Positions 18,918 through 36,803 are shown, numbered from the stretch's first letter. The stretch is DNA of 64,000 bases from Phycisphaerae bacterium (GCA_030601745.1 JAUWBI010000003.1:1-64000), one strand, 5' to 3'. Program-made: numbers and translations. Notes: generated by a model not told the origin, from the sequence alone.

Positions 18918-20723
18918 TCATTTCTTGACGCGTTCCAGCGCTTTTTCCAGCGCGCCGTAACCTACGTTCCATTCGTTCAGGCGCGTGATGTTCTTTTTCT
19001 TAGCGATTTTCACAAAGTGGTCGTAGGCGTCCTGGATTGAGTTGGGCATAGGCCAATCGGCGCCGGCAGCTAACGCCTTTTCGCGCATCTCGTCCCAGCG
19101 CATCATCAAGGCGTACATCACCGGCAGTTGCGCAACCTGAACGCGAAAACGCAGGTCAGAATCGTTCTGGACGGCTGCCTCCGCCGCCTTAAGATGTCCC
19201 CACCCCTTGCTCAGTGTCTCGAACGAAAGGAATTTGGCGGTGTTCTGCGAGAAGCAGCCGAGCCGGTCGCCGCTCGCTTCCACCGCATCGTGCGTCACCT
19301 TCAGGTATGCCTTGATATGCGGGCCGGCGAGGCCATAATTGCCATAGATGAACTCATCAATCAGTTTTTCTCCGTTGCGCGTGGGGTCCCACAGCAGCTT
19401 CGCCAGCACCCACGCCCGCAGTTCAGCCATCTCCGCACCATTCGTGGTGTAGGCACCCTGTTCAAAAAGACCTTTGACGTTGTGGTCCACAAAGAACTTG
19501 ACGTTCGGCCCCAGCACGCGCAGGTTCGGATGCGGCATTATGTGATGCCTGAAGTTGGTGGTGTAATCCCAGATGTAAAGCCGATTGCAAATCTTCGACC
19601 AGCCGACGATGTCATCGCGGAATTTTTTGTTTCGCTCGTCGGCCAGCGGCTTACTAAAAGAGCATTCGATACTGCAGAGGCGAACAATAACGTTGTGCCG
19701 CGGCTTCACGTATTTGGGTGGCTTGCGGGTGTATTGATAGGCCAGGGTGCTGATAGCCACGTGCGGGAATTCCTTTTCGATGTCGGCCGCGACCGCGTTG
19801 ACAAAACGCAAGAGAGACCCTGCAGGGCTGCCTTCTTCTTTATCGATAGCAGCGCATTTGCTGCATTGACAGTTACCGCGCCAATCGTTCTGCGAAACCG
19901 AAGCAATGGTGGCCTTCGGGTTACTACGTAGCCGGGCTTTAAGGTTCTTGACCAGTTCCTTGCGCATTTCCTCGTTGGTCAGGCACAGTTGGGCACGCTC
20001 ATATTTACGTTTTCCATTGATTTCGCTAAACCACTCAGGATGGGCTTTGAAGTACTTTTCAGGCGGAATCAACCTATAGAAGGTGTGCACGTGTCCCTCG
20101 TAAATGTGCTTGCCGCCGCGTTTGGCGTCCAGCCGATGAGCATGTCCATTACACTTGTTGCGCACCGCCCAGTCACCATCAAAAGCGTCAAACCAGAACG
20201 GCGACCGATATTCTAATGCCGGCACATAGCGGACATTGAGCCTACCCACTTTAAGCGTCGGCTTTTTGGGTATCGTGCTGACTTTAGACGACCACCAATG
20301 ACACCCGACATAATCTTCGAGGAAGGTATAAACCGCATACAGTGTCCCTCGCGGATGTCCCCCAGCCAGAATCAAGTCGTTTCCCACCGTCCGGATGACT
20401 ATACCATCGGCACCGAGTCCATCGGTGGAGAAGTTGGGGACAGCTAATTTAGCGGCTTTGGGCCCAACGAGCAGACGGGACCTGCCGGCGGCAGGGGGGG
20501 GTACGATTTCAAATCTTGCACCTGTGATTTGTTGGAGAAAACTGGCCAGTTCCACAGCGGCGTGCTGCTCAGGTTCGGCAGCGTCATCGGCAGCAACTAT
20601 GACCGCTTTCGCCACCCCGTTTGCTGCAATCGTCGCTCCAGCTTCTTTGACTGCTTCCCCGCATCCAATGACAAATAAAAGAGCAGCAAGCACTAACGCG
20701 ATTTTATCTTTTTGCAGAATCAT
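18918..20723 (-). CDS. DUF4838-domain secreted lipoprotein
   Basis: 601 residues. Lipoprotein signal LALVLAALLFVIGC-type at the N-terminus (Cys 21). The N-terminal region (about 35-140: EQHAAVELASFLQQITGARF, VGPKA, GTLYAVYTFLEDYVGCHWW) matches the alpha-glucuronidase/GH20-like N-terminal domain. The middle carries the DUF4838 signature SVSQNDWRGNCQCSKCAAID followed by SPAGSLLRFVNAVA. In Planctomycetota and Bacteroidota such proteins are encoded among carbohydrate-degrading genes; the reaction is not established. It is in a minus-strand group with a sulfatase and a DUF5060-type glycosidase. Confidence 0.85.
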   Translation of the reverse strand: MILQKDKIALVLAALLFVIGCGEAVKEAGATIAANGVAKAVIVAADDAAEPEQHAAVELASFLQQITGARFEIVPPPAAGRSRLLVGPKAAKLAVPNFSTDGLGADGIVIRTVGNDLILAGGHPRGTLYAVYTFLEDYVGCHWWSSKVSTIPKKPTLKVGRLNVRYVPALEYRSPFWFDAFDGDWAVRNKCNGHAHRLDAKRGGKHIYEGHVHTFYRLIPPEKYFKAHPEWFSEINGKRKYERAQLCLTNEEMRKELVKNLKARLRSNPKATIASVSQNDWRGNCQCSKCAAIDKEEGSPAGSLLRFVNAVAADIEKEFPHVAISTLAYQYTRKPPKYVKPRHNVIVRLCSIECSFSKPLADERNKKFRDDIVGWSKICNRLYIWDYTTNFRHHIMPHPNLRVLGPNVKFFVDHNVKGLFEQGAYTTNGAEMAELRAWVLAKLLWDPTRNGEKLIDEFIYGNYGLAGPHIKAYLKVTHDAVEASGDRLGCFSQNTAKFLSFETLSKGWGHLKAAEAAVQNDSDLRFRVQVAQLPVMYALMMRWDEMREKALAAGADWPMPNSIQDAYDHFVKIAKKKNITRLNEWNVGYGALEKALERVKK

Positions 20724-20775
20724 GATAGTCTCCTATGAATAGTGATACGAATATTTGTAATTCTCGGCAGTTGCC

Positions 20776-22278
20776 TTAAGTGCTCTGGTCCCATTCCTCA
20801 GCCAGACCTTCGAGATGCTTTATTATATGTCTGTATTGCCGTTTAGCATAGAGATTTTCTTTTTCGTCGCCGTCTGTTTTCAAATTATACAAAGCGCCGT
20901 CTTTGTCCGGGACGCGCTCATCCATAAAATACACGAGCTTCCATTCCTTCGTTCGCACCATAACACGTCGGCCGGTTCCTTTCCGAAGTTCTTCATACAT
21001 AGACATACTGTGGTCGATTTCGCAAAAGCAGGCCGGCCTCCATTGCTTAATGTCACCTCGTATTAGTGGCATAAGACTCCGCCCGCTGATTGAATCTGGC
21101 ACAGCTAATCCGCAAAGCTCCATTAGTGTCGGCAGAAAATCCACCATTTCGACCGACTCATCGATAACCTTACCTGAGGGAAGAAGCTCCGGGCAGCTAA
21201 TAATCAGAGGCACACATACGTTTTGCTCATAAAAAACCCGCTTCTTCCAGAGTCCGTGTTCACCCAATTGAAAACCCTGGTCCGAATTGATGGCAATGAT
21301 GGTATTATTTATCAAGCCGGCTTTTTTGAGACATTCCACTAATCTGCCGACCTGAGTATCGACAAGTGACACCATCCCGTAGTATGTCCCCCGGCAAATC
21401 TCAATCTGTTCTTTAGTCAGGTCAAGCCCCCCGGCATAAATATGCAGGTTCTCCCTTTCAAATCGTGGCTTGGTTTTTAATTCCTCTTCAGTCGGCAGAG
21501 GCAAAGTGATTTTGTCAGGGTCAATAAAATACGACTCCGGCACACGGCAGGGAACGTGTGGTGCGTGAAAGGAAACACGCAGGAAAAAGGGCTCTTCGCT
21601 TACTGCCAGTTTTCTTAAGGTGTCCACCGCAAGGTCGCCCAGCCGCCACGTCTGCGTTTCTTCCGGAGCAAACGGCACCACCCCTCCTATCATCCACCGG
21701 TGCGTCTTGATATTAACTCGCCGATACCTGTTCGGTTGTGTAATCTTCTCGAATTTCTCTTTGGCCTCAGGACCCCTCGGGTTACCGAAGAAATCTATCA
21801 AGGCGCCCCTGTCACCCTTGCTTATCCAGTCCTTTTGATAGACGTGGCGTTTCCCGACATTGACCGGGTTAATCCCCACTCGCTTCCAGGAATTCACCAG
21901 GTTGGAAACATTCGGCCTGGCTTTTTTCATATAGGCACCAGGGACACCGGCCGGCTTTCCCATAGCTGTAAGCCCGAAGGTATGGGGATAGAGGCCCGAT
22001 TTCATAGACTTTCTCGATGGCACACAGACCGGGTTCTGCACAATCGCACTTGCAAAGCGCACACCTTGATTTGCAATGCCATCCATATTCGGTGTTTGTG
22101 CCCACGCTCTGCCGTAGCATCCAACCGCATCGGCCCGGCCGTCGTCCATCATAATCCACAGTATATTAGGCCGCTTCGATTTTCTCTTTCCGACTGCATA
22201 AAGGTTGCTCACGATGAGTCCCGTGCCGGCCATTAGACTTGCGCTTATGCCTGTTTTGATAAACTCTCTTCGATTCAT
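20776..22278 (-). CDS. Sulfatase (type I, formylglycine-dependent), Tat-exported
   Basis: 500 residues from ATG at 22278; the upstream in-frame extension lacks homology and the Tat signal begins here (MNRREFIKTGISASLMAG). Metal-binding Asp pair at 45-46 in IMMDDGRADAVGCYG. The catalytic motif C85-V-P-S-R89 would have Cys85 converted to formylglycine by a maturase (none is in the window). Later NSDQGFQLGEHGLWKK holds metal and sulfate ligands. It resembles iduronate-2-sulfatase-like members and would remove sulfate esters from polysaccharides. It follows the DUF4838 gene region in the same orientation. Confidence 0.93.
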   Translation of the reverse strand: MNRREFIKTGISASLMAGTGLIVSNLYAVGKRKSKRPNILWIMMDDGRADAVGCYGRAWAQTPNMDGIANQGVRFASAIVQNPVCVPSRKSMKSGLYPHTFGLTAMGKPAGVPGAYMKKARPNVSNLVNSWKRVGINPVNVGKRHVYQKDWISKGDRGALIDFFGNPRGPEAKEKFEKITQPNRYRRVNIKTHRWMIGGVVPFAPEETQTWRLGDLAVDTLRKLAVSEEPFFLRVSFHAPHVPCRVPESYFIDPDKITLPLPTEEELKTKPRFERENLHIYAGGLDLTKEQIEICRGTYYGMVSLVDTQVGRLVECLKKAGLINNTIIAINSDQGFQLGEHGLWKKRVFYEQNVCVPLIISCPELLPSGKVIDESVEMVDFLPTLMELCGLAVPDSISGRSLMPLIRGDIKQWRPACFCEIDHSMSMYEELRKGTGRRVMVRTKEWKLVYFMDERVPDKDGALYNLKTDGDEKENLYAKRQYRHIIKHLEGLAEEWDQST

Positions 22279-22396
22279 GTCATGATAGTATACCTGTTTT
22301 CCTGAGCAAGGTTTAGAGATTGTTAAATTTTTTTCTCCACCAGTATTGTTACTATTGACCAATTACTAATGAAGCCTGGGTAGCACCCTCATGTGT

Positions 22397-22426
22397 GTGG
22401 CAGCCTCAAGCGCAGCTTGGGGATGG
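22397..22426. repeat. 30-bp repeat, copy 1
   Basis: The word beginning GTGGCAGCCTCAAGCGCAGC and ending TTGGGGATGG is identical at 28656-28685. Its core CAAGCGCAGCTTG is a short palindrome. It lies in the 380-nt gap between the sulfatase and PQQ genes. Confidence 0.8.
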
Positions 22427-22490
22427 TCTGGCCGGGGCTTTTCGGGTTGGTGGCGTTGAAATTGGAAACTAAAACGGCGAAAAAGATTGG

Positions 22491-22530
22491 ATATCACGTT
22501 GCATAGCTCTTCAATCCTGAGAACGGCTCG
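22491..22530 (-). pseudogene. Remnant resembling the ccsA 3' end, copy 3
   Basis: Minus strand reads F-S-G-L-K-S-Y-A-T-stop, then GATAT. The true CcsA ends F-S-G-L-H-S-Y-A-T-stop followed by the same GATAT. At DNA level GCAACGTGATAT is identical in all three copies (here, 24181 and 26615). Outside this segment nothing else of ccsA is recognisable. It lies 168 nt after the PQQ-propeller stop. Confidence 0.55.
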
Positions 22531-22658
22531 GCGTGGTATTTACGTATAACGGAACTTTACCGTGAAAGCGCGTTCAATTGTCGCTGCTCCCTATTCTGAC
22601 TTCCGCGCACGAGTTTGTGCACAGTACGCGCACTTCTCATCGGCTAAATCTATCCCAA

Positions 22659-23891
22659 TCATTCAATCGTCCACATCGTCACCGTCTCCTTGTCCTTGAT
22701 GAAGATGCGATTGCCCGCAATCACCGGGTGTGCGTAGATTGGCGTTTCGGCAACCTTGATCTTGGCCAACTCCGAATATTCCTTGTTGCTGGGCTTAAAG
22801 GCTATCAGTTCGGAATTGCTCGGCAGGGCCAGGATTACCGAGCCGGCGTCGACAATGGCCCCGAAACCACCGCGACCGCGCGTGGTTGTGTCGGTCCAGG
22901 CCGTCTGGCCGGTCTTAGCGTTGATGCAGAACAGATTGCTGCGGTCGGAGAGGCCGAAGAGCAGGCCGTCCTTGAGCACCGGCGTGTTGAACTGCGTGGC
23001 GACATCCGGGTTGCTCCAAAGCTCTTTGGCGGTAAAGCCATCACCTTTTTTCTCGATCTTAACGGCCTTGGCGCCCCGACCCTTCCCGGTATAGATCACC
23101 GTTTGTCCGTCGACGATCGGAGTGGCGGCGTTGTACGCCATCCTCACAGGCACGAACGGAAGTTGCCACAGTAGCTTTCCATCGGCCACGCCGACTCCCA
23201 CGATGCTTTTCTCCGACAGCGTCACTATCTGCTTCGTGCCTCCCACCGTCAAAAGTACGGGCGAGGCATACTCCGGGCCTTCGTCGGCCCACCGCCACTT
23301 CTCGTTACCGCTGGCCAGGTTATATGCAATGATTGCCCCATTGCCCTTTCCGCCAAGATGTGCAATGGCCATCCCGTCAACGATGATTGGCGACATGGCC
23401 GTGAAAAACTTGGGCACGACCTTGGGGAACGGGTCCTTGCGCCACACGACCTTGCCGGTGGCGGCGTCCAGGCAGGAGAGGACCCCGCCCACGCCTAACG
23501 TGACGACCTTTCCATTCGCCACCGTGGGTGAGCTTCTGGGTCCCGGGTGTCGGCTGGCCGCTCCGGTCACGGCCTGCGCCGCGTACTTGTCCCGCCAGAC
23601 TTCCTTTCCGTTGCCGGCCTTCAGGCACAGGGTAACCTCTTCCGCTCCTTGCCGCGTGAACACATAGAGCTTGTCGCCCACCAGGGCGGGCGTCGCATCG
23701 CCCGAACCCACCGTCACTTTCCACTTCTGCGTCAGCTCCTTCGGCCATTTCTTCGGCGCGGTGAATCCGCTCACCTTACCATCCCGATTGGGTCCTCGCC
23801 ACTGTGGCCAATCCTGCGCCACGGCGCAGCTCGCGATCATCACGACCACACAAACCGCAAGCGCGACCATTGTTCGATTCGTGTCTTTCAT
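22659..23891 (-). CDS. Secreted PQQ-like beta-propeller repeat protein
   Basis: 410 residues. Signal peptide about 1-25 (VALAVCVVVMIASCAVAQ), then the planctomycetal opening DWPQWRGPNRDGKVSG. Propeller repeats follow of the form A-x-x-G-K-x-x-W (LKAGNGKEVWRDKY, LDAATGKVVWRKDP, YNLASGNEKWRWAD, INAKTGQTAWTD). This resembles BamB/PQQ-dehydrogenase folds but has no dehydrogenase catalytic set, so it is probably a structural or binding protein outside the inner membrane. GGAGG lies 10 nt before the start. Encoded next to the sulfatase; regions of its coding sequence are more GC-rich than its surroundings. Confidence 0.88.
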   Translation of the reverse strand: MKDTNRTMVALAVCVVVMIASCAVAQDWPQWRGPNRDGKVSGFTAPKKWPKELTQKWKVTVGSGDATPALVGDKLYVFTRQGAEEVTLCLKAGNGKEVWRDKYAAQAVTGAASRHPGPRSSPTVANGKVVTLGVGGVLSCLDAATGKVVWRKDPFPKVVPKFFTAMSPIIVDGMAIAHLGGKGNGAIIAYNLASGNEKWRWADEGPEYASPVLLTVGGTKQIVTLSEKSIVGVGVADGKLLWQLPFVPVRMAYNAATPIVDGQTVIYTGKGRGAKAVKIEKKGDGFTAKELWSNPDVATQFNTPVLKDGLLFGLSDRSNLFCINAKTGQTAWTDTTTRGRGGFGAIVDAGSVILALPSNSELIAFKPSNKEYSELAKIKVAETPIYAHPVIAGNRIFIKDKETVTMWTIE

Positions 23892-24120
23892 GGTACCTAC
23901 CTCCAGCTTAATTAATAATCCGAGATTTCACATTTATACTTGGCTTAGCTAAACTGCTGTATTTGTCTGCGACAATTTTACCTGTTACCTCACCGTAATG
24001 CAACTCACTTGCGTTAAATTTTTGTGTTTGAAAACAATGAGAAAGGCTATAATCAACAAATTTGTCTATCTTTTGCCTTCCTGAGCCACTCAAACCTGGA
24101 TTACTTGGATCACGCAGAAA

Positions 24121-24222
24121 AAATAAAAAACCGGAATCCGTGAAATCCGTGAAATCCGCGAAATCCGCGGTGAAAAAAACATATCACGTTGCGCAGCTGT
24201 GCAGACCTGAAAACGCAGAAAT
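24121..24222. repeat. Direct-repeat module downstream of ccsA, copy 2 (contains ccsA-tail remnant)
   Basis: Part of a gene-free stretch of about 560 nt (23892-24451). A 21-bp word starting AAATAAAAAACCGGAATCCG (24121-24141) is identical at 26505-26525. It is followed by tandem GTGAAATCC/GCGAAATCC words. Then, on the minus strand at about 24210-24181, F-S-G-L-H-S-C-A-T-stop and GATATG appear as in the true ccsA end. The two modules bracket the RCC1-repeat gene. Confidence 0.75.
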
Positions 24223-24247
24223 CCTGCTGTTTTTTGGGAGTTTTTTC

Positions 24248-24275
24248 TTGCTAAGAGGGTCATAAGTCATATAAT
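24248..24275 (+). promoter_or_regulatory. Promoter for the RCC1-repeat gene
   Basis: TTGCTA (24248-24253), 16-nt spacer, TATAAT (24270-24275). The predicted start near 24282 gives a leader of about 170 nt before ATG 24452, with AGAGGAG just before the start codon. Confidence 0.55.
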
Positions 24276-24451
24276 GTGTATTAGACATATCTGGAGATTT
24301 TTTATGTTGTTAGCGAGGCCGGGGAACTCTTGCGATTGATTATTGTTAAGCAGAAGTCTCTTGCCTTCAAATTCACTCAGGGATAAAGGTTCTGTTTGCG
24401 TCCTGAGGAAGAAAAGAATCGATAAGCTCCACTTTCTGAGAGGAGAAAAAA

Positions 24452-26527
24452 ATGATTAACAGAGAATCAAAGAAAAGAAGATTGACTTTGGGCTGGCTGG
24501 CGGTAGCGGCCCTCTGCTGCCTTTGTATCGCCCAATCTGCCTTCGCAGGCTCTATCGTCGGCTGGGGCTCTCAGGTTGTAGATAGCAGCGACCCTGGTAA
24601 GCTGACAGCGATAGCCGCAGGCGGGGGGTACAGTCTGGGCCTAAAGTCGGATGGCTCTATTGTCGGCTGGGGGAGCAACAGTTACGGTAAGGCCACGCCG
24701 CCTGATGGTAACAACTTTGTTGCGATAGCCGCTGGCGGGTGGCACAGTCTGGCTCTAAAGTCCGACGGCTCTATCGTCGGCTGGGGTGACAACTATTATG
24801 GTCAGACCACGCCGCCTGACGGAAACGACTTTGTGGCCATCGCCACAGGATTGTGGCACAGTCTGGCTCTAAAGTCCGACGGCTCCATCGTAGGCTGGGG
24901 TATAAGCGGCGGAAGCTTTTTTGACCGTGGGCAAATAACCGATGCTCCAGATGGCAACGATTTTTTGGCGATAGCCGCTGGCAGGCTTCACAGCTTAGCT
25001 CTAAAGTCCGACGGCTCTATCGTTGGCTGGGGCTCCAACATTTATGGTCAGTCCACGCCGCCTGTCGGCAACGACTTTGTGGCGATAGCCGCTGGTGCGC
25101 GTCACGGTCTGGCCCTAAAGTCCAACGGCTCTATCGTTTGCTGGGGCTGGTACAGTTATGGTCTGCTCACGCCGCCTGACGGCAACGATTTTGTGGCGAT
25201 AGCCGCTAGCATGTTTCACTCGCTGGCTCTGAGGTCTGACGGATCTATTGTCGGCTGGGGCGACAACTATTATGGTCAAACCACGCCGCCTGATGGCAAC
25301 GACTTTGTGGCGATAGCCACTGGCGGGGGAGGAATTGGCTCGGGAGGGAATGGTCATAGTCTTGGCTTAAAATCCGACGGCTCTATCGTCGGCTGGGGTG
25401 ACAACTATTATGGTCAGGCCAGGCCGCCTGCAGGCAGCGACTTTGCGGCGATAGCAGCAGGCGGGTCTCACAGTCTGGCTCTAAAGTCCGACGGCTCTAT
25501 CGTCGGCTGGGGCGACAACTATTCAGGTAAGGCTGACCCACCTGACGGCAGCGACTTTGTGGCGATAGCCGCGGGCGGGCTTCATAGTCTGGCTCTAAAG
25601 TCCGACGGCTCTATCGTCGGCTGGGGCTGGGACTACTTTGGTCAGGCCACGCCGCCTAGGGGGCACAATTTTGTCGCGATAGCTGCTGGCTCTGATTATA
25701 GTTTTGCCTTAAAGTCCAACGGCTCTATAGTCGGCTGGGGCTGGGACTACTTTGGTCAGGCTACGCCGCCTAGGGGGCACAATTTTGTCGCGATAGCCGC
25801 GGACGGTGCTCACAGTCTTGCTCTAAAGTCCGACGGCTCTATTGTCGGCTGGGGCAACAACGATTATGGTCAGGCCGCGCCGCCTGACGGTAACGACTTT
25901 GTGGCGATATCAGCAGGTAACGTTCACAGTCTTGCTCTAAAGTCCGATGGCTCTATCGTCGGCTGGGGCGACAACTGGCGTGGTCAGGCCACGCCGCCTG
26001 AAGGCAGCGACTTTGTGGCGATAGCCGCCGGCGGGGAACACAGTCTGGCCCTAAAGTCCGACGGCTCTATCGTCGGCTGGGGAGTTAACTATAGTGGTCA
26101 GGCCACGCCGCCTGATGGCAACGACTTTATGGCCATAGCTGCTGGCTATCATCACAGTCTGGCCATCAGGCGTGAGGTTCCCGTGTCAATAGAAGTGGCA
26201 ATGAAATTGACGCCACAGGCATTGAATCGCAAAGGCAGAGGGAAGTGGATCAAGGCGCACTTTATCCTACCTGAGGATTTGGCGTTTGACGACGTTGATT
26301 CTAATATTTTAGGCCGGATTGAGTCGCTCGGCATCGAAGCAGACTATATGGATGTCTTTGTTGATGAGGATGGCCTAATCAGGGTTGAGATGGCTTTTGA
26401 CCGTACTGCCTTCTGTGATGCTCTGACTGACTCTGGCTCGATTGAGATAACCGTTATTGGCTTTCTTACCAATGGCCAATACTTTTACGGCACAGACACA
26501 ATTAAAATAAAAAACCGGAATCCGTAA
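24452..26527 (+). CDS. Secreted RCC1-type repeat protein, probably two seven-bladed propellers
   Basis: 691 residues. Signal peptide about 1-33 (LAVAALCCLCIAQSAFAG). From residue about 35 to 570 there are about 14 copies of a 40-residue unit of the pattern S-I-V-G-W-G-x-N-x-x-G-Q-x-T-P-P-x-G-x-x-F-V-A-I-A-A-G, then H-S-L-A-L-K-S-D-G. This is the RCC1 blade signature. Fourteen blades fit two seven-bladed propellers. The last 115 residues form a separate beta-rich domain (VSIEVAMKLTPQALNRKGRG through YFYGTDTIKI). Start has GAGAGGAG upstream. The final codons (KNRNP) lie in the 21-bp direct repeat also present before the gene. Role unknown; surface or matrix binding is inferred. Confidence 0.85.
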   Translation: MINRESKKRRLTLGWLAVAALCCLCIAQSAFAGSIVGWGSQVVDSSDPGKLTAIAAGGGYSLGLKSDGSIVGWGSNSYGKATPPDGNNFVAIAAGGWHSLALKSDGSIVGWGDNYYGQTTPPDGNDFVAIATGLWHSLALKSDGSIVGWGISGGSFFDRGQITDAPDGNDFLAIAAGRLHSLALKSDGSIVGWGSNIYGQSTPPVGNDFVAIAAGARHGLALKSNGSIVCWGWYSYGLLTPPDGNDFVAIAASMFHSLALRSDGSIVGWGDNYYGQTTPPDGNDFVAIATGGGGIGSGGNGHSLGLKSDGSIVGWGDNYYGQARPPAGSDFAAIAAGGSHSLALKSDGSIVGWGDNYSGKADPPDGSDFVAIAAGGLHSLALKSDGSIVGWGWDYFGQATPPRGHNFVAIAAGSDYSFALKSNGSIVGWGWDYFGQATPPRGHNFVAIAADGAHSLALKSDGSIVGWGNNDYGQAAPPDGNDFVAISAGNVHSLALKSDGSIVGWGDNWRGQATPPEGSDFVAIAAGGEHSLALKSDGSIVGWGVNYSGQATPPDGNDFMAIAAGYHHSLAIRREVPVSIEVAMKLTPQALNRKGRGKWIKAHFILPEDLAFDDVDSNILGRIESLGIEADYMDVFVDEDGLIRVEMAFDRTAFCDALTDSGSIEITVIGFLTNGQYFYGTDTIKIKNRNP
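24560..26165 (+). repeat. Coding tandem repeat of about 110-130 nt units
   Basis: The RCC1 blades are highly similar at DNA level (CTCTAAAGTCCGACGGCTCT and GCGATAGCCGC recur in most units). The two units around 25610 and 25730 are nearly identical, pointing to recent unit duplication. Copy number is probably unstable. Confidence 0.85.
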
Positions 26528-26650
26528 ACCCCGCCCCTATTAGGGGTGAAATCTGTGGGCCCCCACTTTGCGGGAACCCAAATCCATGGTTGGCTCTGCC
26601 ACAAGTGAAAAACCATATCACGTTGCGTAGCTGTGCAGGCCGGAGAAAAG
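26505..26650. repeat. Direct-repeat module at the ccsA 3' end, copy 1
   Basis: Contains the 21-bp word (26505-26525, overlapping the RCC1 stop), and TTTTTCAC followed upstream by the true ccsA stop and last codons (26615-26650). Its copy lies at 24121-24222. Between the two words this copy has extra GC-rich palindromic DNA (CCCCTATTAGGGG and GGGCCCCCACTTTGCGGG). Confidence 0.75.
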
Positions 26651-27412
26651 CCTGGAGAGGTTTGCCCACAGAAGAGTTATCAAAATCGCCGCCATCCCCG
26701 CAATGACCCACGTGCTGTTAATACGGGCGTGCTTTTTGCCGAACATATATCGGAAATGGAAGTATCCGACATAGACAAGCCACGATGCCAGCGACCAGAG
26801 TTCTTTCGGGTCCCAACCCCAGTAATCGCCCCAGGCCAGCTTACCCCACCAGCTGCCGAGGACAAGGCCGAGGGTCAGTAAAGGAAAGCCGGCACAAATC
26901 GTCCGGTACGTTGCCTCTTCAGGGGGCAGCAGCTTTTCGTCGCCGTCATACGATTTACCGGCGAACTGGGTAAGGGCCTGGAAAGTGGCTTTTGCCATAA
27001 AGATATATGATAACATATAGACCGCAACGTGCGGCACAAACAGCCAGCTTTGCAGGGCGGGCGGCAGTTGTTGTGGCTCGGCGCTGAAGATAAAGCCGGC
27101 AGGGAACAGCACTATCGCCCCTATAAGCATATCCGCGCACCGGCCGCCTACCTGCAGAATCCGCCGGCAAAAAAATGAAACCGGATAACAAATCATACCT
27201 AAGCACAGGAATACCTCGAACAGATTTTGCAGCGGCGTATGACGAACATCATACCAGCGATAACCAAAAGCCAGAACTGCAATTATGAACCCGAAGAGGT
27301 ACAGGACGTGCCCGACTTTTCGACGCCGCAGCAAGCTCATCACGAACGCCAGAAGGTACACGGACATAGCAGCGTAAATTAGTAAACCCTGAACTGTGTA
27401 CTTAATTTCCAT
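26618..27412 (-). CDS. ccsA: Cytochrome c biogenesis protein CcsA/ResC
   Basis: 264 residues, multi-spanning. Carries the WWD-type signature of haem handling: SWWGKLAWGDYWGWDPKELWSLASW, with conserved His residues in flanking TMs (FVPHVAVYMLSY, and GLHSYAT at the end). With ResB it exports haem and attaches it to apocytochromes outside the inner membrane (System II). It abuts resB with no gap (27412/27413). The final 12 codons and following 20 nt exist in two further degraded copies at 24.2 and 22.5 kb. Confidence 0.93.
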   Translation of the reverse strand: MEIKYTVQGLLIYAAMSVYLLAFVMSLLRRRKVGHVLYLFGFIIAVLAFGYRWYDVRHTPLQNLFEVFLCLGMICYPVSFFCRRILQVGGRCADMLIGAIVLFPAGFIFSAEPQQLPPALQSWLFVPHVAVYMLSYIFMAKATFQALTQFAGKSYDGDEKLLPPEEATYRTICAGFPLLTLGLVLGSWWGKLAWGDYWGWDPKELWSLASWLVYVGYFHFRYMFGKKHARINSTWVIAGMAAILITLLWANLSRLFSGLHSYAT

Positions 27413-28655: not shown

Positions 28656-28685
28656 GTGGCAGCCTCAAGCGCAGCTTGGGGATGG
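28656..28685. repeat. 30-bp repeat, copy 2
   Basis: Identical to 22397-22426. Adjacent to a REP palindrome in the resB-hemA divergent gap (363 nt), which otherwise holds only the hemA promoter. Confidence 0.8.
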
Positions 28686-34026: not shown

Positions 34027-35613
34027 ATGAAACATTTCAATATCATTTTCAAGTCCGATGATAAGCAAATTTCGATTCACGCAGGTGCGACACTTTTAGA
34101 GGCCGCGGGCCAGGCAGGCATAATCTTAAATACGGTCTGCGGCGGTAAGGGCATCTGCGAAAAATGTTCGGTAAACGTTGAGCCGGGCGAAGAGCAGGTT
34201 CTGGCCTGTCAGTACCGTATTCAAAGCGACCTTACGGTAACAATTCCGGCCGGCTCCAGGTTTTTCGAGCAGAAAATCCTTGCTGAAGGTATTGATACAA
34301 AAGACAAAATCCAGCCCGATATATACAAGAAATATTTGAAGGGCGATTCGGCCGACCCAATATTCGGCGTGGCGGTCGATATCGGCACAACGACAGTCGT
34401 TGCCAGGCTAATTGATATGACAAACGGCCGATGCCCGGCAACTGAGGCGGAATTAAATCCGCAAAGCCGATACGGCGATGATGTCATCAGCAGAATCAGC
34501 TATGCAGAGACCGATGCAAAATTGGCTGAGCTGCACGAGACAATAATTAACTGCGTAAATGAATTGATTGCCCGGCTCTGCAAACAGGCCGGCGTAGATG
34601 CAAAGTTCATATATGAAATAGCGGTCGTCGGCAATACGACTATGAACCACATATTTCTTAAATTGCCTGTCAAGCAGCTCGGCCAGGCACCGTATAAGGC
34701 GTTCTCTCTCGATGCCAAGGACACACCTGCCTGCAAACTGGTTTTGCAAATAAACCCAGCCGGCAATATCCATAGCGCCCCCAATATAGCCGGCTTTGTC
34801 GGCTCGGATACTACCGCTGTCGCGCTTGCGGTCGATATTAATTCGGCCGAGGAAATGACATTAGCGGTCGATATCGGCACAAACGGCGAGCTTGTACTCG
34901 GCACCGGCGATAAACTCTATGCGGCAAGCTGCGCGGCCGGGCCTGCTTTAGAAGGAGCGCGTATAAGCTGCGGCAGCAGGGCGGTGGAAGGGGCGATAGA
35001 AGCGGTCGTCGCAGACGAAGATGACATAGTTCTGGATGTGATAGGCGACTCGCCGGCTCGGTCAATATGCGGCAGTGGGCTGATTGATGCCGTGGCTGTG
35101 CTGCTGGAATTGGGTATTGTTGACGCAAGTGGACGGTTCGTCAGGGCAAGCACGCTGGCAGGCAGCGTGCCTGTGGCTATTGCCTCTCGCATACGCACCG
35201 AACTCGGCGAGCCGGTCTTTATCCTGACAGCGAGCGGCGTCGCTGAAACGGTGTTTCTGACTCAAAAGGATATCCGTCAGGTTCAGCTTGCCAAGGCGGC
35301 CATCCGGGCGGGGATTAAACTTTTGCAGAAAAAACTTGGCCTCGAAGATTCTGACATAAAACAGATTTTTTTAGCCGGTGCCTTTGGCAATTACATCCGA
35401 CGGGAAAGTGCGCTGCGAATAGGGCTGCTGCCTGATGTGCCGGTGGAGAGGATTCATTTTGTCGGCAATGCCGCAAGTGCCGGCGCACAGATGATACTTC
35501 TTTCTCAGCGGTGCCGAGATAAAGCCTGTGAACTGGCCCGCAAAATAGAATACGTTGAAATCGCCCACGAGCCGGAGTTTCAGGCCGTCTTTGCAGATTC
35601 GATGCGGTTCTAA
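34027..35613 (+). CDS. Ferredoxin-ASKHA protein, corrinoid-activation type (DUF4445)
   Basis: 528 residues. The N-terminal plant-type 2Fe-2S domain has Cys 38, 44, 47 and 61 (VCGGKGICEKC and ACQ). The remainder is the DUF4445 ASKHA ATPase fold with two DIGT phosphate loops (VDIGTTTVVARL; VDIGTNGELVLG), as in RACo, the reductive activator of corrinoid iron-sulfur proteins and methyltransferase systems. No corrinoid protein gene is adjacent. The end IAHEPEFQAVFADSMRF is duplicated in degraded form at 36.25 kb, beyond the methyltransferase gene. Upstream is a TACGCAATACG repeat and no clear ribosome site. Confidence 0.88.
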   Translation: MKHFNIIFKSDDKQISIHAGATLLEAAGQAGIILNTVCGGKGICEKCSVNVEPGEEQVLACQYRIQSDLTVTIPAGSRFFEQKILAEGIDTKDKIQPDIYKKYLKGDSADPIFGVAVDIGTTTVVARLIDMTNGRCPATEAELNPQSRYGDDVISRISYAETDAKLAELHETIINCVNELIARLCKQAGVDAKFIYEIAVVGNTTMNHIFLKLPVKQLGQAPYKAFSLDAKDTPACKLVLQINPAGNIHSAPNIAGFVGSDTTAVALAVDINSAEEMTLAVDIGTNGELVLGTGDKLYAASCAAGPALEGARISCGSRAVEGAIEAVVADEDDIVLDVIGDSPARSICGSGLIDAVAVLLELGIVDASGRFVRASTLAGSVPVAIASRIRTELGEPVFILTASGVAETVFLTQKDIRQVQLAKAAIRAGIKLLQKKLGLEDSDIKQIFLAGAFGNYIRRESALRIGLLPDVPVERIHFVGNAASAGAQMILLSQRCRDKACELARKIEYVEIAHEPEFQAVFADSMRF

Positions 35614-35664
35614 CGAACGGTAGCTGGTGATTGGTAACTGGCGAGTGGTTAAGTGGAGGCACTT

Positions 35665-36237
35665 ATGTCCTTTATTAAGAACATGGTGCAAAAAAGGAAA
35701 AGCGAGAGGATGCCGGACTGGCACTTCAAGTTTATGAACCTGCTCTTTCATCTCATAGACTTCATATACCCATACATAGACAAACGCGTCAAAAAGTTCG
35801 GAATAAAGCCGGGTATGACGGTCGTGGATTACGGCTGCGGGCCGGGCAGGTACTCCACGAGATTCGCACGACTCGTAGGCCGGCACGGAAAAGTCTTTGC
35901 GGTCGATATTCATGAACTGGCTGTCGAAGCCGTGAAGGAAAAGATTGACAAATATGGATTAACAAACATCGAAGCCGTATTGGCAAGCGGATATGACAGC
36001 AGTCTGCCCGACACAATAGCGGACGTAGTATGTGCTATTGATATGTTCTTTATGGTCAAAAAGCCCGCAGAATTCTTAGCTGAGCTAAAAAGGATAACTA
36101 AAAACTCCGGCTGCCTGGTAATTGATGATGGCCATCAACCACGCAGCGTCACTAAGGCCAACATCCTGCAATCCGGCCATTGGGACATCATCGAGGAAAC
36201 GCGCGACCACCTGAAATGCAAGCCGAACTATACGTAA
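35665..36237 (+). CDS. Class I SAM-dependent methyltransferase
   Basis: 190 residues from ATG at 35665; GTGGAGG just upstream, itself the end of an ACTGG/GATTGG-type repeat. SAM-binding motif I VVDYGCGPGRYSTRFA, acidic motif II VFAVDIHE, motif IV VVCAIDMFFMV, and later LAELKRITKNSGCLVIDDG. Substrate unknown. It starts 51 nt after the DUF4445 gene, and lies between that gene's true 3' end and a second, degraded copy of it. Confidence 0.88.
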   Translation: MSFIKNMVQKRKSERMPDWHFKFMNLLFHLIDFIYPYIDKRVKKFGIKPGMTVVDYGCGPGRYSTRFARLVGRHGKVFAVDIHELAVEAVKEKIDKYGLTNIEAVLASGYDSSLPDTIADVVCAIDMFFMVKKPAEFLAELKRITKNSGCLVIDDGHQPRSVTKANILQSGHWDIIEETRDHLKCKPNYT

Positions 36238-36248
36238 AGCGGCATTGC

Positions 36249-36284
36249 ACACATCAATATCGCCCACGAGCCGGACTTTCAGGC
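36249..36284 (+). pseudogene. Remnant of a DUF4445-gene 3' end
   Basis: Reads N-I-A-H-E-P-D-F-Q-A-V on the plus strand; the intact gene ends with E-I-A-H-E-P-E-F-Q-A-V. DNA is nearly identical over the core (ATCGCCCACGAGCCGGA then TTTCAGGC). The remnant is followed at once by the 3' end of a convergent membrane-protein gene. Confidence 0.7.
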
Positions 36285-36803
36285 TGTGTCAGCAAACACA
36301 ATCATTGACCAGCCAACTATATTTATTGCTCCGTGAAATGCGGTTGTATACATGAGCGCGGAACCGAAATTACGGGCGGCGAAATGGGCATAGCAATAGG
36401 CCAGGAACAGGCCGGTAACGAATGACGGCACAACTGCCGCCAGCATAGGGTGTAATAGCATCATCAGCATCGCAGATATAATAACAAACAACCACGGTCG
36501 GGCAGGAAGTTTCCCTTTCTTTCTGTGAATGAGAGAAAGAGCGAAAAATGGCAGTGAACACTCGAGGAGGGTTTCAAGTAACGGGGCAATGATTACGATA
36601 TTGGCGAATAACATGACCGGATTCATTCCTGAAAGCTCCTCCGGCAGACTTGCTTCCGAAATCCGGGCATCGGTAAAAAGGAATTTCGCAGCTATCATAT
36701 AGGGGACAATGAAGCACCATCGTACAATGTAGAGAATGACTACGAACTGCCAGGCAGCTCTTGAGTCCAGCCAGTCCAGCCATTTTGTCATCCGAAGCGC
36801 CAT
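36279..36803 (-). CDS. CPBP-like intramembrane protein
   Basis: 174 residues, about five TMs. Three weak motifs of CPBP (Abi/CAAX-protease-like) proteins are visible in order: ETLLE in PLLETLLECSLPF for motif 1, LLHP for motif 2, and FHGAIN for motif 3. Catalytic competence is doubtful because motif 1 lacks the usual adjacent Glu pair and Arg. Its last codons run into the DUF4445 remnant on the other strand. Confidence 0.55.
   Translation of the reverse strand: MALRMTKWLDWLDSRAAWQFVVILYIVRWCFIVPYMIAAKFLFTDARISEASLPEELSGMNPVMLFANIVIIAPLLETLLECSLPFFALSLIHRKKGKLPARPWLFVIISAMLMMLLHPMLAAVVPSFVTGLFLAYCYAHFAARNFGSALMYTTAFHGAINIVGWSMIVFADTA

Follow-up and report, generated by a model that had tools for sequence, protein, structure and literature searches.

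Copies of the ccsA 3' end border two serially inserted genes in a Phycisphaerae bacterium

Staphylococcal cassette chromosome (SCC) elements integrate at rlmH, and tandem stacking of these elements is known. Salmonella genomic island 1 (SGI1) integrates at trmE (PMC8409611). Helicobacter pylori comparisons led to the description of insertion with long target duplication (Nobusato et al. 2000, Gene 259:99; summarised in PMC1643837 and PMC3874152), a process associated with restriction-modification and similar modules, whose repeats, in what these summaries give, are of the order of 100 bp. Relocated ordinary genes with direct target-site repeats, often of more than 30 bp, are described for Arabidopsis in the relevant section of PMC2869330, variable segments in Escherichia coli and others are flanked by repeats mostly shorter than 30 bp (PMC2884548), and for the effector-immunity arrays of Vibrio type VI secretion systems (T6SS) serial displacement by homology-facilitated illegitimate recombination was proposed (PMC5361080). 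How single genes enter bacterial chromosomes, or relocate within them, without a transposase or integrase is poorly explained. Here we analyze a stretch of 64,000 nucleotides from a Phycisphaerae bacterium (GCA_030601745.1, JAUWBI010000003.1:1-64000; the whole stretch is referred to as the window), in which the 3' end of ccsA, a cytochrome c assembly gene, occurs three times, with one secreted-protein gene between successive copies. The comparisons show that DNA was inserted repeatedly at the ccsA 3' end, whose last ~30 nt came to lie on both sides of each insert, and we consider it rather probable that this happened by target duplication.

The host gene ccsA (26618-27412, minus strand) encodes a protein of 264 amino acids, is intact (Pfam PF01578, 3.4e-33) and has orthologues across the order. 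Its ~30-nt tail is present three times on the minus strand, with stop codons ending at 26618, 24184 and 22494 and every copy ending in TGATAT, and reading the sequence confirmed the three segments where the initial annotation of this DNA had placed them. Copy 1, the proximal repeat (26608-26647), is the genuine ccsA 3' end plus 10 nt. Copy 2 (24174-24213) is identical to it at 35 of 40 nt, over a stretch that starts 30 nt before the stop and runs to 10 nt past it, and copy 3 (22491-22523), the most decayed, at 27 of 33 nt (both by local alignment). Only copy 1 belongs to a ccsA gene, and the ~90 nt that precede the tail copies show no ccsA homology (27-28% identity). When the 3.45-Mb assembly was searched with the 18-nt core AGCTNYGCAACGTGATAT, allowing up to 2 mismatches, exactly three matches were obtained, all at the ccsA locus (with 3 mismatches, 0.21 matches per window are expected by chance), and the absence of dispersed copies from the host genome favors the cassette insertion that had been proposed for the locus. 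That the pattern reflects metagenome misassembly or a dispersed repeat is extremely improbable: although most of the compared genomes are fragmented drafts, in which misjoins are possible in principle, the motif is confined to this one place, its copies diverged to unequal degrees, and separate assemblies (G059, G024 and G026, discussed below) show related or analogous states.

The three copies delimit two inserts. Insert 2 (24214-26607), bordered on its right by copy 2, carries the RCC1 cassette with its flanks, whose gene (24452-26527) encodes a secreted RCC1-repeat protein of 691 amino acids (PF13540, 13 stretches). Insert 1 (22524-24173), bordered on its right by copy 3, carries the PQQ cassette, whose gene (22659-23891, minus strand) encodes a secreted PQQ/BamB-like beta-propeller protein of 410 amino acids (PF13360, PQQ_2). 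The two genes separate the copies as had been noted, and Pfam confirmed their domains, with the correction that RCC1 lies on the plus strand, convergent with ccsA, and therefore does not simply follow it. At the left ends of both inserts lies a 30-nt segment (26504-26533 and 24120-24149, minus strand), 90% alike between the two and without any other copy in the genome.

Comparison with relatives revealed both an empty site and an intermediate-like state. In G018, a member of a different genus, a single ccsA is followed directly by DNA that matches the part of the window right of copy 3, with a sulfatase and a DUF4838 gene next. The corresponding ancestral ccsA downstream region of the window (18920-22490, minus strand; sulfatase at 20776-22362, DUF4838 at 18918-20723) was recognized by synteny and by blastn identity of 79-86% to G018 (L093), and this arrangement indicates that the window's lineage gained 4.1 kb. 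G059 belongs to the window's own genus, and its ccsA is followed by the PQQ block at 90% identity across 1475 nt (22574-24048 in the window); RCC1 is absent between ccsA and PQQ in G059, as it is from G018. The lack of RCC1 in G059, together with the advanced decay of copy 3, indicates that PQQ was inserted first and RCC1 second. As a separate observation, a perfect 30-nt direct repeat flanks the ccsA region (22397-22426 and 28656-28685), and its latter copy sits in an apparent dispersed repeat (reading ..PAKAGIQ..).

The older insert holds a gene with a history of its own. PQQ has a single strong match in the window's genome, and 45 of 89 genomes of the family possess one (E <= 1e-60). In G015 and G018 the protein is 84% identical and is encoded on a contig different from that of ccsA; the right flank of the gene in these genomes aligns with that in the window (22546-22658, minus strand) up to ~25 nt before copy 3, and the window's left flank of the gene is not found in theirs. 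Judging from these alignments, PQQ is not foreign but a resident gene of the family that changed place in the window's genus, and its native right flank (~110 nt) is DNA that was carried along in the move. In this the locus differs from the initial picture of cassettes, PQQ being an old resident that moved and not a newcomer. The relocated genes of Arabidopsis, as portrayed in the section cited, resemble this footprint, and differ in being eukaryotic and in that no serial use of one gene end is described there. For RCC1, the nearest relatives were found in G016 (79%) and G082 (71%), over the C-terminal part.

To see how widespread such copies are, we surveyed 161 genomes of the order, of which 115 have ccsA, with the DNA downstream of the gene testable at 98 loci. 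Downstream tail copies were found at three of these, in the window and in two other species, G024 and G026, with scores of 15-37, as compared to a top score of 13, reached once, when reversed sequences served as a control over the same 98 loci. Two matches in L150 were discarded as a low-complexity repeat. In G024, a 585-bp insert with one open reading frame (ORF) of 128 amino acids lies between sharp repeats of 31 nt, 30 of them identical. In G026, an insert of 1327 bp, with a nucleotidyltransferase/HEPN (MNT/HEPN) pair and an ORF of 147 amino acids, lies between sharp repeats of 48 nt, 46 of them identical; here the repeat ends within the stop codon, and the functional TAA is completed by insert sequence. 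The congeners G025 and G027 (genus g12) are empty, ccsA being followed at once by the same next gene (cluster c5). In the window, G024 and G026 alike ccsA is intact, the repeat restoring the 3' end of the target gene. With an empty site in G018, an intermediate-like G059 and two independent cases with congeneric empty sites, serial cassette insertion at the 3' end, as first suggested for this locus, is supported.

Beyond these cases, 78 ccsA loci from other bacteria yielded no convincing tail copy, a sample of 392 genomes of the phylum gave none further (a weak negative, as the stringent pattern picked up few ccsA genes), and a looser tail pattern applied across the order was too noisy to use. 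No tail copy was found at the alpha-galactosidase-like gene that adjoins ccsA in G015, G031 and G041 and follows PQQ in G059. In addition to a complete ccsA, G088:C65 contains ccsA-like N-terminal and C-terminal fragments ~160 kb apart (L099, L100); we considered them as a product of the same process, and no tie to it could be made.

The survey also bears on the alternative raised together with cassette insertion, namely that the copies are left over from ccsA paralogues since lost, and on a related one, tandem duplication. The copies do stem from ccsA coding DNA, and a true ccsA paralogue exists in G012, where a survey match turned out to be a genuine second CcsA-like gene (32% identity) and not a tail copy; this divergent gene lies 5.7 kb downstream of ccsA (L073, G012:C15, 8778-9557). 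It is the only exception among the relatives, none of which has tandem full ccsA genes otherwise, and this absence again favors cassettes. Moreover, homology does not reach further than 30-50 nt upstream of the stop in any copy, the same gene end is involved in all four events, the DNA on the right is the ancestral sequence downstream of ccsA, and each of the close relatives compared has a single ccsA at this place. Paralogue remnants are thereby refuted for the close relatives examined, and as a general account we give them next to no weight.

We then asked whether gene ends other than that of ccsA bear similar marks, scanning ~1500 gene ends for tail copies that stand alone and enclose unrelated genes, and found inserts at other genes flanked by repeats of ~30-75 nt. 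Within the window, 29 nt from near the 3' end of RACo (34027-35613) recur at ~36259-36287 (27 identical), with a methyltransferase gene (35653-36237) between the copies, probably a footprint of the same kind. At the 3' end of an MBL-fold hydrolase gene (L327, G000:C9, 1483-2841), a DUF4258/DUF2283 pair lies between 73-nt repeats; the site is empty in the sister G060, whose downstream DNA matches the window's genome to the right of the distal copy (L360 and L362 compared). In G015, a DUF2283 gene occupies the same MBL gene end between two copies of G015's own MBL tail, and the case may represent either a single old insertion followed by losses or two separate insertions. An epimerase gene end of G010 (L096, G010:C4, 3118-5511) is repeated after the gene of a 396-amino-acid membrane protein, the distal copy including what may be the ribosome-binding site of the gene that follows; G009 was checked as an empty site for this insert, and none was obtained.

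A gene-independent search for repeats added a 74-nt direct repeat upstream of rpsP around two small membrane-protein ORFs (L348, G000:C26, 12520-13497), and, on both sides of a three-gene module (L347, G000:C25, 2414-5276), a direct repeat of 71 nt (98.6%); by eye, and not by Pfam, the module includes ImmA/IrrE-like and PIN-like proteins. Isolated direct repeats outnumbered inverted ones 12:1 in 0.64 Mb of the window's genome, some of the 12 being paralogues. We attributed the tail copies at the C-termini of a rubredoxin-like (L344) and a dockerin-like protein (L351), as well as those of tandem sulfatases (L348), to protein homology or to tandem duplication and did not count them. No clear footprint was seen at positions inside genes that served as controls, and this bias toward gene ends can be a matter of selection, since insertion inside a gene would destroy it. 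The ccsA footprint itself stands as first seen, and the like footprints elsewhere mean that it is not peculiar to ccsA.

The constancy of the insertion point calls to mind site-specific integration, in which the ccsA 3' end would be the attachment (att) site of a tyrosine or serine recombinase and the inserts integrase-less satellites, mobilized in trans and stacked like composite SCC. As at att sites in gene 3' ends, every repeat restores the gene end; the left edge lies 30-31 nt before the end of the stop in three of four events, ccsA was hit independently in two genera, and tyrosine recombinases are plentiful in these genomes. SCC and SGI1 likewise have the gene 3' end directly repeated on both sides with gene function kept, and SCC stacks in tandem; unlike them, the present inserts have no recombinase in or beside them, their repeats vary in length, and more than one gene is targeted. 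The PF00589 matches in the 8 genomes searched do not lie beside ccsA, and the two best families among them look like XerC/XerD. Furthermore, the sharp repeats are unequal (31 versus 48 nt), the footprint recurs at other gene ends of unrelated sequence, the tail motif was found on no viral contig, and an internal resident gene such as PQQ is an odd cargo for an integrative element. Neither of the integron attC boxes, RYYYAAC and GTTRRRY, was seen on inspection of the ccsA tail, no search having been aimed at an integron integrase, and the literature on ccsA as an integration site yielded nothing beyond islands at dusA. Taken together, we regard a dedicated recombinase as unlikely.

Another possible route is a single crossover at short homology, or homology-facilitated illegitimate recombination, in which the incoming DNA already had a tail beside its cargo, and pairing of this tail with the resident one left the latter downstream. 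The Vibrio T6SS arrays, for which such serial displacement leaving 3' ends was proposed, are alike in that successive insertions downstream of a conserved 5' part leave host-gene 3' ends between the inserted genes; there, however, the new 3' end replaces that of the effector and brings an immunity gene, whereas here the CcsA protein is unchanged and the cargo unrelated. The 30-nt left-end segment common to both window inserts fits such pairing, as does the presence in G015 of the same DUF2283 gene between that genome's own tail copies. The MBL gene has NPHLQ in its distal tail, as in the sister G060, and NPFLQ, nearer to the NQFLQ of g7 species, in the functional one. We initially took these tails as proof of a donor-derived functional tail and withdrew this, as one old insertion followed by precise loss in G060 fits equally. 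Third-position identity (67.5% for DUF2283, compared to 55% for MBL and 61% for ccsA) gives no sign of recent transfer, and the route requires a cargo already linked to the tail, whereas PQQ and ccsA are not linked in G015 or G018. We hold this route to be quite improbable.

Target duplication remains the explanation we prefer. A small DNA segment entered the ccsA end twice, each time leaving the last ~30 nt, or slightly more, on both sides; the proximal copy completes a working ccsA, and the distal one is a silent scar that decays. In the first step, PQQ moved to the ccsA end with ~110 nt of its own downstream flank, and in the second, the RCC1 segment entered between ccsA and PQQ. In this reading, insertion so close to the stop codon is tolerated because the duplication keeps the end of the reading frame. 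As to the enzymology, we infer that the duplication may arise through general repair or recombination, an origin favored by the unrelated target sequences, the variable repeat lengths, the lack of a recombinase among the inserted genes and the internal gene as cargo; ORF and Pfam analysis detected no transposase or integrase in the inserts at ccsA and MBL.

The closest match among the described processes is insertion with long target duplication. As given in the summaries cited, the two have in common an inserted segment of one or a few genes that a close relative lacks, a long and variable direct repeat, a target that is single at the empty site, and no transposase. Here, the segment is absent at the orthologous site in G018, G025 and G027 (ccsA) and in G060 (MBL), and the ccsA target is single when empty and directly repeated around the insert. 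The MNT/HEPN, DUF4258/DUF2283 and PIN-like modules among the inserts may be compared with the module cargo those summaries report. Differences from the H. pylori cases, again as summarised, are repeats of mostly 30-75 nt, serial use of one conserved gene end, a relocated resident cargo and the occurrence in planctomycetes.

Several observations weigh against this explanation. At 31 and 48 nt, the sharp repeats fall short of the length given for H. pylori, and others, at 71-74 nt, show how variable they are. In three of four ccsA events the left edge coincides, with right edges that differ and a longer repeat in G026; a common left edge would not be predicted from a process of random length. 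Both window inserts begin with the common 30-nt segment, so that RCC1 may have entered by recombination with sequence left by the first insertion. After PQQ, G059 has no distal ccsA tail copy; its similarity to the window breaks off ~80 nt short of the end of copy 3, and we interpret this as a later rearrangement. Finally, ccsA was hit at 3 of 98 loci as compared to a handful among the ~1500 other gene ends, a hint that it is a preferred insertion site.

The locus offers an ordered series of states (empty, one insert, two), a resident gene that has moved and independent recurrences of the event at one and the same gene end, and thereby makes gene-end duplications of ~30-75 nt countable across genomes and their mechanism testable. 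It also cautions against taking copies of gene ends for gene remnants. More tentatively, an active, integrase-free process might operate across the order, placing single genes or toxin-antitoxin-like modules, resident or foreign, at conserved gene 3' ends via duplications of 30-75 nt, with ccsA preferred and with stacking and precise loss possible. If this is true, ordinary gene ends would act as the attachment sites of a cassette-like system.

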